From assembly GCF_000429645.1 (NCBI RefSeq), contig NZ_KE386935.1, positions 120,946 to 184,945 on the forward strand: 64,000 bases of DNA, in the 5' to 3' direction. A model generated the notes under the pieces. That model searched no databases. It worked only from the letters and a program-made list of their open reading frames with translations, and was not told where the DNA came from. How positions within the stretch are numbered: position 1 is the first letter of the stretch; the number at the start of each line of letters is the position of its first letter. Position numbers and translations under genes: made by a program. The stretch comes from Niveispirillum irakense DSM 11586. GTDB taxonomy: Bacteria > Pseudomonadota > Alphaproteobacteria > Azospirillales > Azospirillaceae. This document shows, piece by piece, positions 33,646 to 41,175 of this stretch.

Positions 33646-33873
33646 AGCGTTGCGTAAGCAGCGGAGGCCAGCCCGCCGCCCTTATGCCCCCTTGACCTTA
33701 CACATCCCGTCAGATCGCCACCGCCTGCCCGGACCGGGAAAGGACGGGCGCTCCCCTGCGCCGCTGCTGGAAAATCAATTTTCCGACCACTCAAATCGCA
33801 AAATTCACCACACCCATATCCATTTTCACCACAGGACCGCCTGATATTTTCCAGAATATAGCAAAAATCCAGT

Positions 33874-33889
33874 TGGCACGCCCTTTGCT
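33874..33889 (+). promoter_or_regulatory. Sigma-54 (RpoN) promoter
   Basis: TGGCACG-CCCT-TTGCT matches the -24/-12 consensus at every conserved base, with exactly 10 bp between the invariant GG (33875-33876) and GC (33887-33888). It is correctly oriented and 56 bp upstream of the start of the first small membrane protein. Such promoters need an enhancer-binding activator; none is encoded nearby. The AT-rich stretch 33780-33870 upstream could hold the enhancer or an IHF site. Confidence 0.85.
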
Positions 33890-33945
33890 CTAATGGGTTC
33901 ATCGGCGGATCACCCGCCAGCGACATTCCAAAGATGGAGATCACG

Positions 33946-34113
33946 ATGACCCGCATGACCAGCACCGCCGCCGCCGACCGCTTCGCCGCTGAAGAAGGTT
34001 TCATGGGCCTGACCGCCGGCCTGATCCCGGCCAGCACGATGGAGCGGGTGGAAATGGCCCTGGTCCTGGGCTGCGGCATCATGATGACCCTGCTGCTGCA
34101 CGCCTTCCTCTGA
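33946..34113 (+). CDS. Tiny single-pass membrane protein 1 (sigma-54 driven)
   Basis: A 55-residue protein, MTRMTSTAAADRFAAEE at the start and one hydrophobic helix at the end. The C-terminal half IPAS-TMERVEMALVLGC-GIMMTLLLHAFL contains a conserved ERVEMA-x-VLGC-x3-MTLLL block shared with the next gene. A GGAG sits about 9 bases before the ATG. Composition predicts an N-terminus outside the bilayer and a C-terminal membrane helix with a Cys near its start. No family is recognised. The promoter type points to an inducible stress or nutrient response. Confidence 0.8.
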   Translation: MTRMTSTAAADRFAAEEGFMGLTAGLIPASTMERVEMALVLGCGIMMTLLLHAFL

Positions 34114-34192
34114 TCCGACGGCCTGTGCCGGCGCTGCGCCGCCGCCCCTCGCCCCGGCCTTCCCCCCTCACCCCGACCCGACGGAACCTGCC

Positions 34193-34408
34193 ATGTCCAC
34201 CCTGTCCGCCCCGATGAACATCCCCACCGCCGCTGCCCGCACTGGGACCACCGGGACCACTGGCCTGTTCGCCAGCGGCTTCAGCTTCAATGGCCGCGCC
34301 CGCCTGCTGCGCACCATCATGCCGGCAGATGCGGTGGAGCGGGTGGAAATGGCGATGGTTCTGGGCTGCGCGCTGGCCATGACCTTGCTGTTGAACGCCC
34401 TGCTCTGA
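34193..34408 (+). CDS. Tiny single-pass membrane protein 2 (paralogue of protein 1)
   Basis: A 71-residue protein. A Ser/Thr/Gly-rich N-terminus (TGTTGTTGLFASGFSF) and basic RARLLRT precede MPADAVERVEMAMVLGC and ALAMTLLLNALL. Over the last 27 residues roughly two thirds are identical to protein 1, so the pair arose by duplication. Both end directly after the hydrophobic helix. They are 79 bp apart and presumably co-transcribed from the sigma-54 promoter. A role in membrane-stress signalling or as protein-complex anchors is possible but unproven. Confidence 0.8.
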   Translation: MSTLSAPMNIPTAAARTGTTGTTGLFASGFSFNGRARLLRTIMPADAVERVEMAMVLGCALAMTLLLNALL

Positions 34409-34554: not shown

Positions 34555-35835
34555 ATGCAAAAGATTTATCTGCTGGATGAGGAAGCAGGTTCGGCAGAAT
34601 CGCTTGCTGGCTATCTCCACCCCTATGGCTATGCGCTGCACCATTTCAGCCACCCGGTCGCCCTGCTGGAAGCCGTTGCCGCCGCCCCGCCGGATGCAGT
34701 GCTGATTGATCTGGAACTGGGCGGCAATGCCGATGGTGGTTTGGCGGTCGCGACCGCCCTGCCGCGGGGTGATGATGGCCGCCGGGCCTTCCCGCTGCTG
34801 TTCCTTTCCACCCGGCAGGATTTCGATGCCCGCCTGTTATCCGTGCGCGCCGGTGCCGACGCCTTCGTTGCGCGGCCGGTTGATGTGGCAAACCTGGTCG
34901 ACCGGCTGGATCTTTTGACCCAGGTGAACCCGCCCGAGCCATTCCGCATCGTGTTGATCGAAGATGATCCGCTGATGGGGCAGCTTTATGAACATGTCCT
35001 GCACCGGGCGGGGATGGCGGTGTTCCGGCTGGCCGATCCCACCCGCGCCCTGGCCGCCATCCATGACCATGCGCCTGACCTGCTGATCACCGATCTCAAC
35101 ATGCCGCAATGCAGCGGGCTGGAACTGGCCGCCGTGCTGCGCGGGCATGAGGCGATGACGGCCCTGCCCATCGTCTTCCTGACCGCCGATGACCGTATCA
35201 GCAACCAGCGCAGCGCGATGAATGTCGGCGGCGATGCCTTTCTGATCAAGCCCGTCGCGCTGGCCGATCTGGTGGAAACCGTCCGGGCGCGGGCGCGGCG
35301 GGCCCGTCAACTCCGCTCCCTCATGGTGCGCGACAGCCTGACCGGTGCCTTGAACCACGCCATGATCAAGGAATTGCTGGCCTCGGAACTGGCGCGTTCC
35401 CAGCGCTCTACCCTGCCCGTCTCCTTCATCATGGTCGATATCGACCATTTCAAGCAGATCAATGATCGCTACGGCCATCCCGTGGGGGATCAGGTGATCA
35501 AGTCGCTGGCCCGGCTGCTGCAACAGCAGTTGCGCCGGACCGATTATATCGGCCGCTATGGCGGGGAGGAGTTCGCCGTCATCATGCCCCGCACATCGGC
35601 CGACGATGCCTATGAAAGGATGGAGGCGCTGCGCCAGGGCTTTGCCGCCCTCATCCATCATCATGAAGGCAAGGGCTTCAGCGCCACCTTCTCCTGCGGT
35701 ATCGCCGACAGCGCCGGTGGCGCGGCGGAAGCCTTGTCCCAGGCCGCCGATCAGGCGCTTTATGCCGCCAAACATGGCGGCCGCAACCAGGTCCGCCTCT
35801 TTCTGTCGGAACAGCAGACCGGCAGCCTTTCCTGA
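34555..35835 (+). CDS. PleD-like diguanylate cyclase (REC-REC-GGDEF)
   Basis: A 426-residue response regulator that makes cyclic-di-GMP. The first receiver (1-125) has Asp52 but lacks the usual C-terminal Lys (ARPVD instead of KP), so it may be an adaptor as in PleD. The second receiver (130-250) has phosphoacceptor Asp180 and Lys232. The GGDEF domain (about 255-420) has the active GGEEF at 336-340 and an intact RxxD inhibitory site (327-330). Its stop overlaps the next start by one base (TGATG). No histidine kinase is adjacent. Confidence 0.92.
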   Translation: MQKIYLLDEEAGSAESLAGYLHPYGYALHHFSHPVALLEAVAAAPPDAVLIDLELGGNADGGLAVATALPRGDDGRRAFPLLFLSTRQDFDARLLSVRAGADAFVARPVDVANLVDRLDLLTQVNPPEPFRIVLIEDDPLMGQLYEHVLHRAGMAVFRLADPTRALAAIHDHAPDLLITDLNMPQCSGLELAAVLRGHEAMTALPIVFLTADDRISNQRSAMNVGGDAFLIKPVALADLVETVRARARRARQLRSLMVRDSLTGALNHAMIKELLASELARSQRSTLPVSFIMVDIDHFKQINDRYGHPVGDQVIKSLARLLQQQLRRTDYIGRYGGEEFAVIMPRTSADDAYERMEALRQGFAALIHHHEGKGFSATFSCGIADSAGGAAEALSQAADQALYAAKHGGRNQVRLFLSEQQTGSLS

Positions 35836-36976: not shown

Positions 36977-37459
36977 TCAGGACACCCGGTCGATCCGGCC
37001 CGTATCCAGCAGCGGCGCCGCGTCAATCTTTTCCGCATCCAGCAGGCTGCCCAACCGTTCCAGCATTGCGACAATCATGGCCTGTTCCCAATCCGGCAGG
37101 TTCTGAAACCGGCCAGAGAACTGGGCCTGCAGCATGTCAGGCGCCGTCTCCAGTATCTGTCGCCCCTTGGGTGTAATCGATACCCAGATCTGCCGCCGGT
37201 CCTGATCCCCGCGCCGCCGGGCGACCAGCCCCAGCGCCTCCAGCCGGTCCGCCAGATTGGTGACTGTGGCCTGACTGAACTGAACGGCGGCGGCCAGACT
37301 GCTGGGCGTCGCCTCCCCACGCCGCGCGACTTCCTGCAGCAAAAGTAATTGTGACGGGGTCAGCCCGGTTTCCGATGCCAGCCGGCGTTCCGCCATCTCT
37401 GCGGCGCGCATGATACGGCGAAGGCCGCGCAGGGCGGCGTCGGTACGCGGCTCAACCAT
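36977..37459 (-). CDS. ectR: MarR-family regulator, likely EctR
   Basis: A 160-residue winged-helix regulator. The MarR core is visible: TPSQLLLLQEVARRGEATPS, the recognition region QFSQATVTNLADRLEALGLV (about 64-83) and the wing RRGDQDRRQIWVSITPKG (about 86-103). It is divergent from ectA, the position of EctR, the MarR-type repressor of ectoine genes known in methylotrophic halophiles. The 263-bp gap between them would hold its operator. The regulator name rests on context. Confidence 0.75.
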   Translation of the reverse strand: MVEPRTDAALRGLRRIMRAAEMAERRLASETGLTPSQLLLLQEVARRGEATPSSLAAAVQFSQATVTNLADRLEALGLVARRRGDQDRRQIWVSITPKGRQILETAPDMLQAQFSGRFQNLPDWEQAMIVAMLERLGSLLDAEKIDAAPLLDTGRIDRVS

Positions 37460-37722: not shown

Positions 37723-38286
37723 ATGGTTCAACCAGACCACCGACCCGAAAGCGCCACCAGCGATGCCACCTCTTCCAAGGAGGATGCGACTACCATCACC
37801 CTTCGTCCGCCGGTGGCTGGCGATGGGACCGACATCCACCGGCTGATTGCCGCCTGCCCACCGCTGGACACCAATTCGCTGTACTGCAACCTGCTGCAGG
37901 CCACCCATTTCGCCCAGACCTGCATCCTGGCGGAACGGAATGGACAGCCCGTCGGCTGGATTTCCGGCTATGTGCCGCCAAACGATCCGCACACCCTGTT
38001 TGTCTGGCAGGTTGCCGTGCATGAGGTCGCGCGCGGCCAGGGGTTGGGACGGCGGATGCTGCAAGGTCTGCTGGACCGCCCGGCACTGGCGCGCGTGCGA
38101 CATATCCAGACCACCATCACCCCCTCCAACCAGGCAAGCTGGGCCCTGTTCCAGGGCTTTGCCAAGGCGCGCGGCGCCAGCCTGAGCCACGAGGCCCATT
38201 TCCATCGCGACCGGCATTTCGATGGCGCGCACGAGACGGAACACATGGTCAGCATCACGCTGCCCAAAGCTGCCGTCGCCGCCTGA
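37723..38286 (+). CDS. ectA: L-2,4-diaminobutyrate N-acetyltransferase
   Basis: A 187-residue GNAT acetyltransferase, second step of ectoine synthesis. After a variable N-terminus of about 25 residues come LRPPVAGDGTDIHRLIAACPPLDTNSLYCNLL (family signature), VWQVAVHEVARGQGLGRRML (acetyl-CoA loop RGQGLG about 106-111) and TTITPSNQASWALFQ. GGGGTG lies 8-13 bases before the ATG. It is the first gene of the ect cluster, 43 bp before ectB. Confidence 0.95.
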   Translation: MVQPDHRPESATSDATSSKEDATTITLRPPVAGDGTDIHRLIAACPPLDTNSLYCNLLQATHFAQTCILAERNGQPVGWISGYVPPNDPHTLFVWQVAVHEVARGQGLGRRMLQGLLDRPALARVRHIQTTITPSNQASWALFQGFAKARGASLSHEAHFHRDRHFDGAHETEHMVSITLPKAAVAA

Positions 38287-38329
38287 TCCGGCCCCGCACC
38301 CTATCTGTAAATTTCCTTAGAGGAATCTC

Positions 38330-39640
38330 ATGTCCATCATGCCGATGCCGACGGCCACCCCGCCGGACGTCTCCACTTTTGACCGTCTGGAATCACGGGT
38401 TCGCAGCTATTCCCGCTCCATGCCGCGCCTGTTCACCAAGGCAGAAGGTTCCTGGATGGAAGATGCCCAAGGCGGTCGCTATCTGGATTTCCTGTCCGGC
38501 TGTTCCAGCCTGAATTATGGTCATAATCACCCGGTCCTGAAGCAGGCACTGCTGGATTACATCGCCGCCGATGGCGTCACCCACAGCCTGGACCTGCACA
38601 CCGAAGCCAAGGAAGAATTCCTGGCGGAGTTGGACAAGACCATCCTGAAGCCGCGTGGCCTTTCCTATCGCGCCATGTTCACGGGCCCCACCGGCACGAA
38701 TGCTGTGGAAGCAGCCCTGAAGCTGGCACGCAAGGTGACCGGTCGGCAGAATGTCATCGCCTTCACCAATGGCTTCCATGGCATGACGCTGGGGGCACTG
38801 GCCTGCACCGGCAATGCCGGCAAGCGCGGCGGTGCCGGCGTGCCGCTGTCCCATGTCAGCCACGAACCGTTCGACGGCTATTTCGGCCCGGATGTCGATA
38901 CGGCCGACCTGCTGGAACAGCGCCTGTCCGACCCATCCAGCGGGTTGGACAAGCCGGCCGCCATCCTGATTGAATCCGTGCAGGGTGAAGGCGGGTTGAA
39001 CGTCGCCTCCACCCCCTGGCTGCGCAAGATCGCCGATCTGGCCAAGCGCCACGGCGCGCTGCTGATCCTGGATGATATCCAGGCCGGCTGTGGCCGGACG
39101 GGCAATTTCTTCAGCTTCGAGGAAGCCGGCATCAAGCCCGATATCGTCACCCTGGCAAAGTCCCTGTCCGGCATGGGGCTGCCTTTCGCGCTTACCCTGA
39201 TCAAGCCGGAATTGGATCAATGGAAGCCCGGCGAACATAACGGCACGTTCCGGGGCAATAACCATGCCTTCATCACCGCTGCTGCCGCCATCCGCCATTT
39301 CTGGCGTGATGACAAGTTCGCCTCGGAAGTGAAGGCGAAGGGTGATTTCCTGGCTGAACGCCTGGCGGAAATCGCCGCCCCGTATGGCGATGAATTCCGG
39401 CTGAAAGGCAGGGGCATGATGCGCGGCATTGATGTCGGGTCCGGCGATCTGGCCGACCGCATCACCAGTGCCGCCTTCGCCCGCGGCCTGATCGTGGAAA
39501 CCAGCGGCCCGCATGACGAGGTGGTGAAAATCCTGGCCCCGCTGACCATCAGCAGGGAAGAACTGGCCACCGGTCTGGACCTGCTGGAACAGTGCGTGAC
39601 GGCGGCCATGTCGCGCCCCTATAGCGCCGCCGCTGAATAA
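38330..39640 (+). CDS. ectB: Diaminobutyrate-2-oxoglutarate aminotransferase
   Basis: A 436-residue class III PLP aminotransferase that makes L-2,4-diaminobutyrate from aspartate semialdehyde. The family blocks are FLSGCSSLNYGHNHP (about 52-66), TGPTGTNAVEAALKLARK (about 121-138), the PLP-binding ILDDIQAGCGRTG (about 246-258) and Lys in VTLAKSLSGMG (about 275). A consensus AGAGGAA ribosome site precedes the ATG. A terminator-like hairpin follows its stop. Confidence 0.96.
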   Translation: MSIMPMPTATPPDVSTFDRLESRVRSYSRSMPRLFTKAEGSWMEDAQGGRYLDFLSGCSSLNYGHNHPVLKQALLDYIAADGVTHSLDLHTEAKEEFLAELDKTILKPRGLSYRAMFTGPTGTNAVEAALKLARKVTGRQNVIAFTNGFHGMTLGALACTGNAGKRGGAGVPLSHVSHEPFDGYFGPDVDTADLLEQRLSDPSSGLDKPAAILIESVQGEGGLNVASTPWLRKIADLAKRHGALLILDDIQAGCGRTGNFFSFEEAGIKPDIVTLAKSLSGMGLPFALTLIKPELDQWKPGEHNGTFRGNNHAFITAAAAIRHFWRDDKFASEVKAKGDFLAERLAEIAAPYGDEFRLKGRGMMRGIDVGSGDLADRITSAAFARGLIVETSGPHDEVVKILAPLTISREELATGLDLLEQCVTAAMSRPYSAAAE

Positions 39641-39649
39641 ACAAATCTC

Positions 39650-39677
39650 AAAGGGCGGAATGATCCGCCGCCCTTTT
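39650..39677 (+). terminator. Rho-independent terminator-like hairpin between ectB and ectC
   Basis: Stem AAAGGGCGG (39650-39658) pairs with CCGCCCTTT (39668-39676) and runs into TTTTCAT. A second 9-bp GC hairpin, GCCCCGCCC-N5-GGGCGGGGC, follows at 39700-39722 without a T-run. Together they should reduce read-through from ectAB into ectCD-ask. Confidence 0.72.
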
Positions 39678-39781
39678 CATCCCATGCCCCAATGGCAGCG
39701 CCCCGCCCTTCTGGGGCGGGGCGGCAGACCGCCTCATGCGCTCATGGGGCCACTATCAAGAGCAATATCAGGAGATTTCAC

Positions 39782-40171
39782 ATGATCGTCCGCACGCTGG
39801 CCGACATTAAGGCTTCCGACAAGAACGTAGTTTCCAAAGGCTGGGAAAGCGCCCGCCTGCTGCTGAAGGATGATGGGGTCGGCTATTCCTTCCATATCAC
39901 CACCATCTATGCCGGCGCCGAACTGCCGATGCATTACAAGAACCATCTGGAAACGGTCTACTGCATCAGCGGTGAAGGCAGCATTGAGGATCTGGCCACC
40001 GGTGAGATCCACGAGATCAAGCCCGGCACCATGTATTCCCTGAATAACCATGACCGCCACATCCTGCGCGGCAAGACCGAAATGATCATGGCCTGTGTCT
40101 TCAACCCGCCCGTGACGGGCCGCGAAGTCCATGACGATACCGGTGCCTATCCGGCCGACAAGGCGGCCTGA
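39782..40171 (+). CDS. ectC: Ectoine synthase
   Basis: A 129-residue cupin that cyclises N-acetyl-diaminobutyrate to ectoine. Cupin motifs are [20 protein letters not shown] (His/Glu/Tyr iron region, about 51-70) and [17 protein letters not shown] (His about 92). The ATG at 39782 follows AGGAGATTTCAC; an upstream in-frame start is not family-like. The 110-bp leader after the hairpins could carry its own promoter. Confidence 0.96.
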
Positions 40172-40257
40172 TGCGCCGGCATGGCGGGGGAAAACTCCGC
40201 CATGCCCTGGCTGCTCTCCCCCCTTTTCTCCGAATGGCAACCCGATAGGAATGACCG

Positions 40258-41175
40258 ATGACCGATCTATACCCGTCCCGATGTGAAGACCGCGCCCGGC
40301 TGCTGCCGCGCCAGGACCCCGTTGTGCATGGGCAGTGGGACGAAACGGCGCCGCTGTCCCGTGAACAGGCGGACCATTTCGACCAGAAAGGCTATCTGGT
40401 TCTGGAGGGCCTGTTCGGGGCCGACGAGATGGAAATCCTGCAATCGGAGGCGGCCTCGCTCCTGGCCCATCCGCAGGGTTTGAAGGATGAAACCGTCATA
40501 ACCGAGCGTGGCAGCAACGAGGTGCGCTCCATCTTTGAAATCCACCGCCAGAACGCGATGATGGAACGGCTGGTGGCCGATGAAAGGCTGGCCGGCGTCG
40601 CCCGTTTCCTGCTGGGTGATGATGTCTATATCCACCAATCACGGCTGAATTATAAGCCCGGCTTCAAGGGCAAGGAATTCTACTGGCATTCCGATTTCGA
40701 AACCTGGCACGTGGAAGATGGCATGCCGCGCATGCGCGCCCTGTCCATGTCCATTCTGCTGGCCCGCAACACAGCCCATAATGGTCCGCTGATGCTGATC
40801 CCCGGCTCCCACAAGGAGTATCTGACCTGCGTTGGGGAAACGCCGGACAACCATTATAAAACCTCGCTGAAGAAGCAGGAATATGGCGTGCCGGATGATG
40901 ACAGTCTGGCCGATCTGGCCAACCGCCATGGTATCGATGCCCCCACGGGTGAACCGGGCACAGTGGTGATCTTCGACTGCAACACCATGCACGGGTCGAA
41001 CAGCAACATCACGCCCTTCCCGCGTGCCAACGCCTTTTTCGTGTTCAACGCCCTGTCCAACCGGCTGCAAAAGCCGTTCGGACCCGCCACACCGCGCCCG
41101 GAATTCATCGCCGCGCGGCAGGATATCCAGGCCATCCGGCCCGTATCCGGCCGTCTGACGCGGAGGGCGGCATGA
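40258..41175 (+). CDS. ectD: Ectoine 5-hydroxylase
   Basis: A 305-residue Fe(II)/2-oxoglutarate dioxygenase that converts ectoine to 5-hydroxyectoine. The diagnostic strand FYWHSDFETWHVEDGMPRMR (about 141-160) provides the His144 and Asp146 iron ligands, and His245 in NTMHGSNSN is the third. Presence of ectD means the organism can make the heat- and desiccation-protective form. Its stop overlaps the aspartokinase start (ATGA). Confidence 0.96.
   Translation: MTDLYPSRCEDRARLLPRQDPVVHGQWDETAPLSREQADHFDQKGYLVLEGLFGADEMEILQSEAASLLAHPQGLKDETVITERGSNEVRSIFEIHRQNAMMERLVADERLAGVARFLLGDDVYIHQSRLNYKPGFKGKEFYWHSDFETWHVEDGMPRMRALSMSILLARNTAHNGPLMLIPGSHKEYLTCVGETPDNHYKTSLKKQEYGVPDDDSLADLANRHGIDAPTGEPGTVVIFDCNTMHGSNSNITPFPRANAFFVFNALSNRLQKPFGPATPRPEFIAARQDIQAIRPVSGRLTRRAA

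Follow-up and report, generated by a model that had tools for sequence, protein, structure and literature searches.

What a pair of very small hydrophobic proteins encoded directly behind a sigma-54 promoter does in Niveispirillum irakense DSM 11586, and which genes act with it, is the question raised by this locus. The original prediction, made from a window of 64,000 nucleotides (the whole stretch of DNA analysed), proposed that the pair, next to a diguanylate cyclase, could be an undescribed envelope or signalling module. Family searches, promoter comparisons and gene neighbourhoods were used to follow up this proposal. Most copies have a control sequence in common with the genes of a two-component regulator and of a peptide-type exporter, and this sharing points to a possible dedicated response of the cell envelope.

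The promoter and gene pair of the window

The consensus -24/-12 element, TGGCACG-N4-TTGCT, is located exactly as originally claimed, at 33874-33889, with a GG-to-GC gap of 10 bp and 56 bp separating it from the ATG at 33946 (Table 1), and it contains the sigma-54 core GG-N10-GC with TGGCAC and TTGCW. When two mismatches are tolerated, sigma-54 motifs in the window are not above chance, with 11 seen vs 8.2 expected. Exact TGGCACRNNNNTTGCW sites number 13 in the 5.45-Mb genome vs 1 for the reversed control pattern, and the genes behind the others, named by eye, include nifH (nitrogenase iron-protein), flagellar genes, a GGDEF gene, the region of pspA and a cluster of iron-sulphur/nif type. Because exact matches are rare and several precede recognisable sigma-54-type targets, the exact motif is a good predictor in this genome.

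Both open reading frames translate as predicted, into 55 and 71 amino acids, and share the ending ERVEMA-x-VLGC-x3-MTLLL followed by four residues. The ATG of the first gene is preceded by GGAG at 6 bp, and AlphaFold models its product with a predicted C-terminal helix at residues 29-54, a pLDDT of 89-96 in the block, and a low-confidence N-terminus. The claimed paralogy is borne out by the tree, in which the two genes are mutual closest relatives outside the main Niveispirillum groups, their deeper placement being weak; by this topology the pair is a lineage-specific duplication. Since the two genes are each other's closest relatives outside those groups, pairing seems to have arisen separately in this lineage and in two large genera. 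The pair is therefore not the basic unit that the original prediction took it to be, as pairing originated more than once and several species carry single genes.

The response regulator-GGDEF neighbour, which had been offered as context for the module, adjoins the family in this window only; among the loci inspected it stands beside no other family member, and it probably lies outside the module. Elsewhere in the window, positions 37723-41175 read as an ectoine/hydroxyectoine cluster in the order ectA, ectB, ectC, ectD, and a MarR-like gene occupies 36977-37459, all names being assigned by eye. A second micro-protein pair of the same genome is found at C1:769473-769812, adjoining a mobA-like gene that stands between this pair and an exporter operon starting near C1:761182.

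Table 1. Coordinates of the features described in the window.
Feature	Position	Strand	Remarks
Sigma-54 (-24/-12) promoter element TTGGCACGCCCTTTGCT	33873..33889	+	Exact match; same element before nearly all homologues
Proximal element TATTTTCCAGAATAT, imperfect palindrome immediately 5' of -24	33845..33859	+	GGAAW/WTTCC core conserved in family promoters
Possible decayed remnant of the distal enhancer palindrome, TGCCCGGACCGGGAAA	33726..33741	+	9/12 matches; not counted as functional
55-aa single-pass micro-protein (predicted), first gene	33946..34113	+	Family profile match E 1.5e-16; alternative in-frame start 33934
71-aa paralogue, second gene	34193..34408	+	Family profile match E 2.2e-13; sister of first gene, support 100/99
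Response regulator-GGDEF (diguanylate cyclase) neighbour	34555..35835	+	Pfam Response_reg and GGDEF

A family of C-terminally hydrophobic micro-proteins

Searching with a single protein returned its own genome and weak matches only, and the family was found with a profile built from the first homologues, gene calls being made with a simple codon-usage script. After iteration, it comprises 92 open reading frames, 84 of them distinct. By profile search it is present in 21 of the 82 genomes of the same taxonomic family, namely all 11 Niveispirillum, all 7 genomes of a second genus (g11) and one genome each of three others (G054, G055 and G076); three further matches, with E of 0.03-0.04 in long frames, were discounted from this count. 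The same search found no convincing member in the 45 genomes of genus g3, and wider sampling, of 385 genomes from the Alphaproteobacteria and 398 at phylum level, yielded no further one. The sole match outside the taxonomic family (G328) was treated as chance because it is weak and its reading frame was unsupported on inspection, and a plasmid search for the family gave no match.

Some genomes have single genes (G054, G055, G066 and G067), whereas others have pairs or arrays with as many as eight genes. Their products have a median length of 50 amino acids, and the last 19-20 residues form a hydrophobic segment that reaches the C-terminus. Among the 84 distinct members, E occupies position -20 in 80 and N or H position -4 in 79, the final residue is mostly L, and no charge follows the hydrophobic segment, while the net charge of the N-terminal part varies between -6 and +5 across the family. 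Hydropathy points to a single-pass inner-membrane location. Synonymous change exceeds non-synonymous change (0.198 vs 0.097 over 111 non-independent pairs), and by this measure the family is under purifying selection.

The original statement that no known family is recognised agrees with database searches, in which 12 members had no significant match in Pfam, NCBIfam or PHROGs. Nothing on these micro-proteins was found in the open-access literature, and the family is apparently undescribed. Light-harvesting-like pairs and Flp pilins were considered and set aside, as the helix has no fixed histidine and the C-terminal domain is absent.

Several other genes accompany the arrays. Those of genus g11 are flanked by a 307-amino-acid protein without a Pfam match and contain a DUF4265 gene (L087:8701-9159 and L090:9014-9472, the domain having been tested in L087). 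At two separate sites in the genomes, genes close to micro-protein arrays and adjoining a TPR-GAF histidine kinase encode proteins that have a tetrapyrrole-methylase domain and, at the C-terminus, long tandem repeats (ELNDAA..., EEHxA...; L076:4226-5884 and L082:14479-16179); we take these proteins to resemble borosin-type methyltransferases.

Promoter architecture across the family

Whether homologues carry a conserved, correctly spaced sigma-54 site had been proposed as a check, and in the 21 genomes almost all first genes do, with a perfect or near-perfect element whose distance to the start is 43-75 bp. The fetched loci, 400 kb in total, contain 35 perfect elements, of which 34 precede family genes; since these loci were chosen for containing the family, the ratio shows association, not genome-wide specificity. 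The 35th (L088, 9180) is also array-borne, with two transposase-like open reading frames (in L088:9180-10235) before the next micro-protein pair, an arrangement that looks like promoter and genes separated by an insertion. Right after the -12 element, GGG-N-CATC is conserved in most family promoters (CATC in 33 of 44), for example at 33895-33902 in the window.

Upstream of the core promoter, 38 of the 44 promoters have the proximal GGAAW/WTTCC core between -45 and -8 relative to the -24 element, vs a mean of 4.8 and a maximum of 11 after shuffling. In Niveispirillum it mostly takes the form TATTTTCCAGAAT, and TATTTTCCNGAATAT, with at most one mismatch, occurs at two places only in the genome of the window, each before micro-protein genes. 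A candidate third element (CCACT...TCG / ATCGCCA) is too variable to define.

Further upstream, the palindrome TGTCCG-N4-CGGACA precedes most arrays at about -130 to -166, often in 2 or 3 copies. In species that have the regulator, the palindromes before the arrays match at 10-12 of 12 positions, with the exception of the window copy and one G066 copy. In the window, the best match within 300 bp scores 9/12 at -147, near the usual position, a score that about one in eight shuffles reaches.

A palindrome shared with a regulator, an exporter and a peptidase

The palindrome and a sigma-54-like site also precede an exporter operon encoding an NPD-x-WL micro-ORF, an HlyD-type adaptor, an ATPase and MacB/FtsX permeases. 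Each of the 16 full-length adaptor genes examined has this combination upstream, and the operon of G068 has the MacB_PCD and FtsX domains and HlyD-type adaptor of a broadly defined MacB-type exporter; in the genome of the window, the adaptor orthologue is at G000:C1:761479. The NPD-x-WL micro-ORF (L212-L228), recognised by pattern at the head of 15 of the 16 operons, represents a second, apparently unrelated family with a hydrophobic C-terminal segment, and the one tested had no Pfam or NCBIfam match. In four species, S41 peptidase genes likewise stand behind the palindrome and a sigma-54-like site (G068, G069, G070 and G074; loci L204, L205, L207 and L209). An IRBP-like N-domain was detected in the two peptidases tested.

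Just 5' of the gene for the response-regulator sigma-54 activator, a palindrome scoring 11-12 of 12 is found in the majority of the species examined (G054, G055, G060, G064, G065, G066, G067 and G068); the regulator gene in the genome of the window, at G000:C3:154655-156058, has no such palindrome just upstream. The regulator adjoins the exporter in G054, G055, G066 and G067, and the arrays usually do not adjoin the exporter. The kinase, as read from its sequence, has two transmembrane segments joined by a loop of about 8 residues. Two other activators were set aside. The sequence TGTTCA-N4-CGGACA agrees with TGT-N10-ACA and so made NifA a candidate, yet a better fit is given by the wider palindrome TGTCCG-N4-CGGACA and by how another regulator is distributed; for PspF, no such palindrome is found at the pspA promoter.

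Regulator orthologues with 75-85% identity occur in 17 of the 82 genomes, all of them family-bearing, the other matches listed being paralogues at about 45% identity or less. The exporter adaptor is likewise present in 17 of 82, all family-bearing and 16 of them in common with the regulator. The family occurs without the regulator in four genomes: G071, G075 and G076 also lack the exporter and the palindrome, and G072, a draft with 93% completeness in about 860 contigs, has the palindrome and the exporter with no regulator found. In G063, a fragmented draft of about 730 contigs, the regulator is present and no adaptor was found. Apart from these two fragmented drafts, a genome has either all three of regulator, exporter and palindrome or none of them. 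Fisher's test gives p < 1e-13 for this co-occurrence, a value that ignores phylogeny and overstates the evidence. Because co-occurrence follows phylogeny, the independent events are few, and the informative ones are G076 and the apparent sister pair G071/G075.

Proposed function and alternative explanations

The gene family, its promoters, the shared palindrome and the co-occurrence are observed in the sequences. Built on these, a reading in which the micro-proteins are membrane-resident effectors or partners of a regulator-driven sigma-54 envelope or peptide-export response can be held with moderate confidence. In most species, a dedicated two-component system would turn the family on: a histidine kinase whose two transmembrane segments lie close together, possibly sensing the membrane itself, would phosphorylate an AtoC/NtrC-type response regulator, which would bind the TGTCCG-N4-CGGACA sites about 130-165 bp upstream and activate transcription by RNA polymerase with sigma-54. 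The same signal would raise the MacAB/Dar-like ABC exporter, its NPD-x-WL micro-ORF and the S41 peptidase. Made in quantity, the micro-proteins would then be inserted into the membrane via the C-terminal helix, where they might act as effectors with a protective role, or as small partners, when the cell responds to envelope stress or to membrane-active peptides. The window copy would have kept the core promoter and the proximal element, with the regulator's distal site lost or never present; another activator may therefore control the window pair. The original idea of an undescribed envelope or signalling module thus stays plausible, with the regulator, the histidine kinase, the MacAB/Dar-like exporter and the S41 peptidase as candidate partners, whereas the diguanylate cyclase and the pair as a unit drop out of it.

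In the main alternative, the same exporter and peptidase are read as carrier and trimmer of exported hydrophobic peptides, bacteriocin- or signal-like, of which the micro-proteins would be the precursors. The control element common to the S41 peptidase, the tandem gene amplification and the variable N-termini are compatible with this, and the exporter subunits score well against darobactin-export models and a putative bacteriocin-export ATPase, although below cut-off, so that the curated Dar subunit thresholds are not reached. The micro-proteins themselves, however, show no double-glycine or other leader, their conservation lies in the C-terminal helix and not in a leader, and their N-terminal charge varies over the wide range given above. 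Furthermore, the persistence of the family without regulator or exporter in G071, G075 and G076 argues against strict dependence on that exporter, and peptide precursors are a possible but doubtful explanation. Its more specific version, in which the tandem-amplified micro-proteins are cargo of the Dar-like exporter, are trimmed by the S41 peptidase under the same control and serve to attack neighbouring cells or to act between them, is unlikely; if true, it would represent a new class of sigma-54-controlled peptide system.

The micro-proteins could instead be small membrane regulators of the AcrZ, MgrB or YknW kind, binding and tuning the kinase, the exporter permease or another membrane protein. 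A separate micro-ORF does head nearly every exporter operon, and such pumps have known accessory membrane proteins, for example YknW and AcrZ (PMC5985334). Many copies per genome would nevertheless be unusual for a regulator, and the three genomes just named keep the family without the regulator or exporter, which makes this role rather improbable. Short, hydrophobic and tandem as they are, the micro-proteins also resemble membrane-damaging toxins of type I toxin-antitoxin systems, but to our knowledge neither sigma-54 promoter architecture nor co-control with an exporter is typical of these, and a toxin function appears very unlikely. GC-rich DNA easily yields short open reading frames, and the genes could in principle be such frames over chance promoter-like sites. 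The sequences themselves refute this: the family has 84 distinct members, the geometry of their C-termini is fixed, selection is purifying and promoters are almost universal, leaving a negligible probability of artefact.

These results add an unannotated micro-protein family, in arrays or as single genes nearly all behind a sigma-54 promoter. With a proposed regulator and its DNA site, the regulon is directly testable by deleting two genes. A further link joins sigma-54 to a MacAB/Dar-like exporter that has a fixed micro-ORF, and this is relevant to the role of small membrane proteins with such pumps.

Comparison with known systems

In the PrsK-PrsR/RpoN system, a Fis-type sigma-54 response regulator and its kinase act through a TGGCAC-type promoter and an upstream enhancer before genes for PEP-CTERM proteins (PMC9850573). 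The system described here has a similar combination of candidate sigma-54 regulator with kinase, TGGCAC promoter and putative upstream enhancer, and its proposed target proteins likewise have a C-terminal hydrophobic segment. PrsR (TIGR02915) is the best NCBIfam model for the regulator, but at 366 bits against a cut-off of 502.6 the match falls short. Unlike PEP-CTERM proteins, the micro-proteins have neither a PEP motif before the helix nor a basic tail and end within or just after the helix, and no exosortase was noticed beside them.

The exporter resembles MacAB, DarBCD and YknXYZ in combining an adaptor, an ATPase and MacB/FtsX permeases, with DarC, DarD, ADOP and DarB as best or near-best equivalogs, although the Dar scores stay under the NCBIfam cut-offs (DarC 218/450, DarD 277/375, DarB 148/700). 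YknXYZ protects against a membrane-active peptide, with YknW as its membrane accessory protein (PMC5985334). As described, however, these exporters have neither sigma-54 control nor separate micro-protein arrays.

The Psp system also joins sigma-54 and small membrane proteins to membrane stress, and pspA in the genome of the window has the same exact promoter; at G000:C16:23479-23494, the element precedes a 66-amino-acid open reading frame and a pspA-like gene, and a pspF-like gene points away from these in the divergent orientation. It differs in that no such palindrome lies upstream of the pspA promoter and that the micro-proteins have no similarity to Psp families. Additionally, the sequences show a likeness to intramembrane-sensing kinase modules of the Bce/Lia type, which extends to a two-transmembrane kinase with a very short loop, an FtsX-type permease and, putatively, induced membrane proteins; the regulator here differs in being a sigma-54 activator and not of the OmpR or NarL type.
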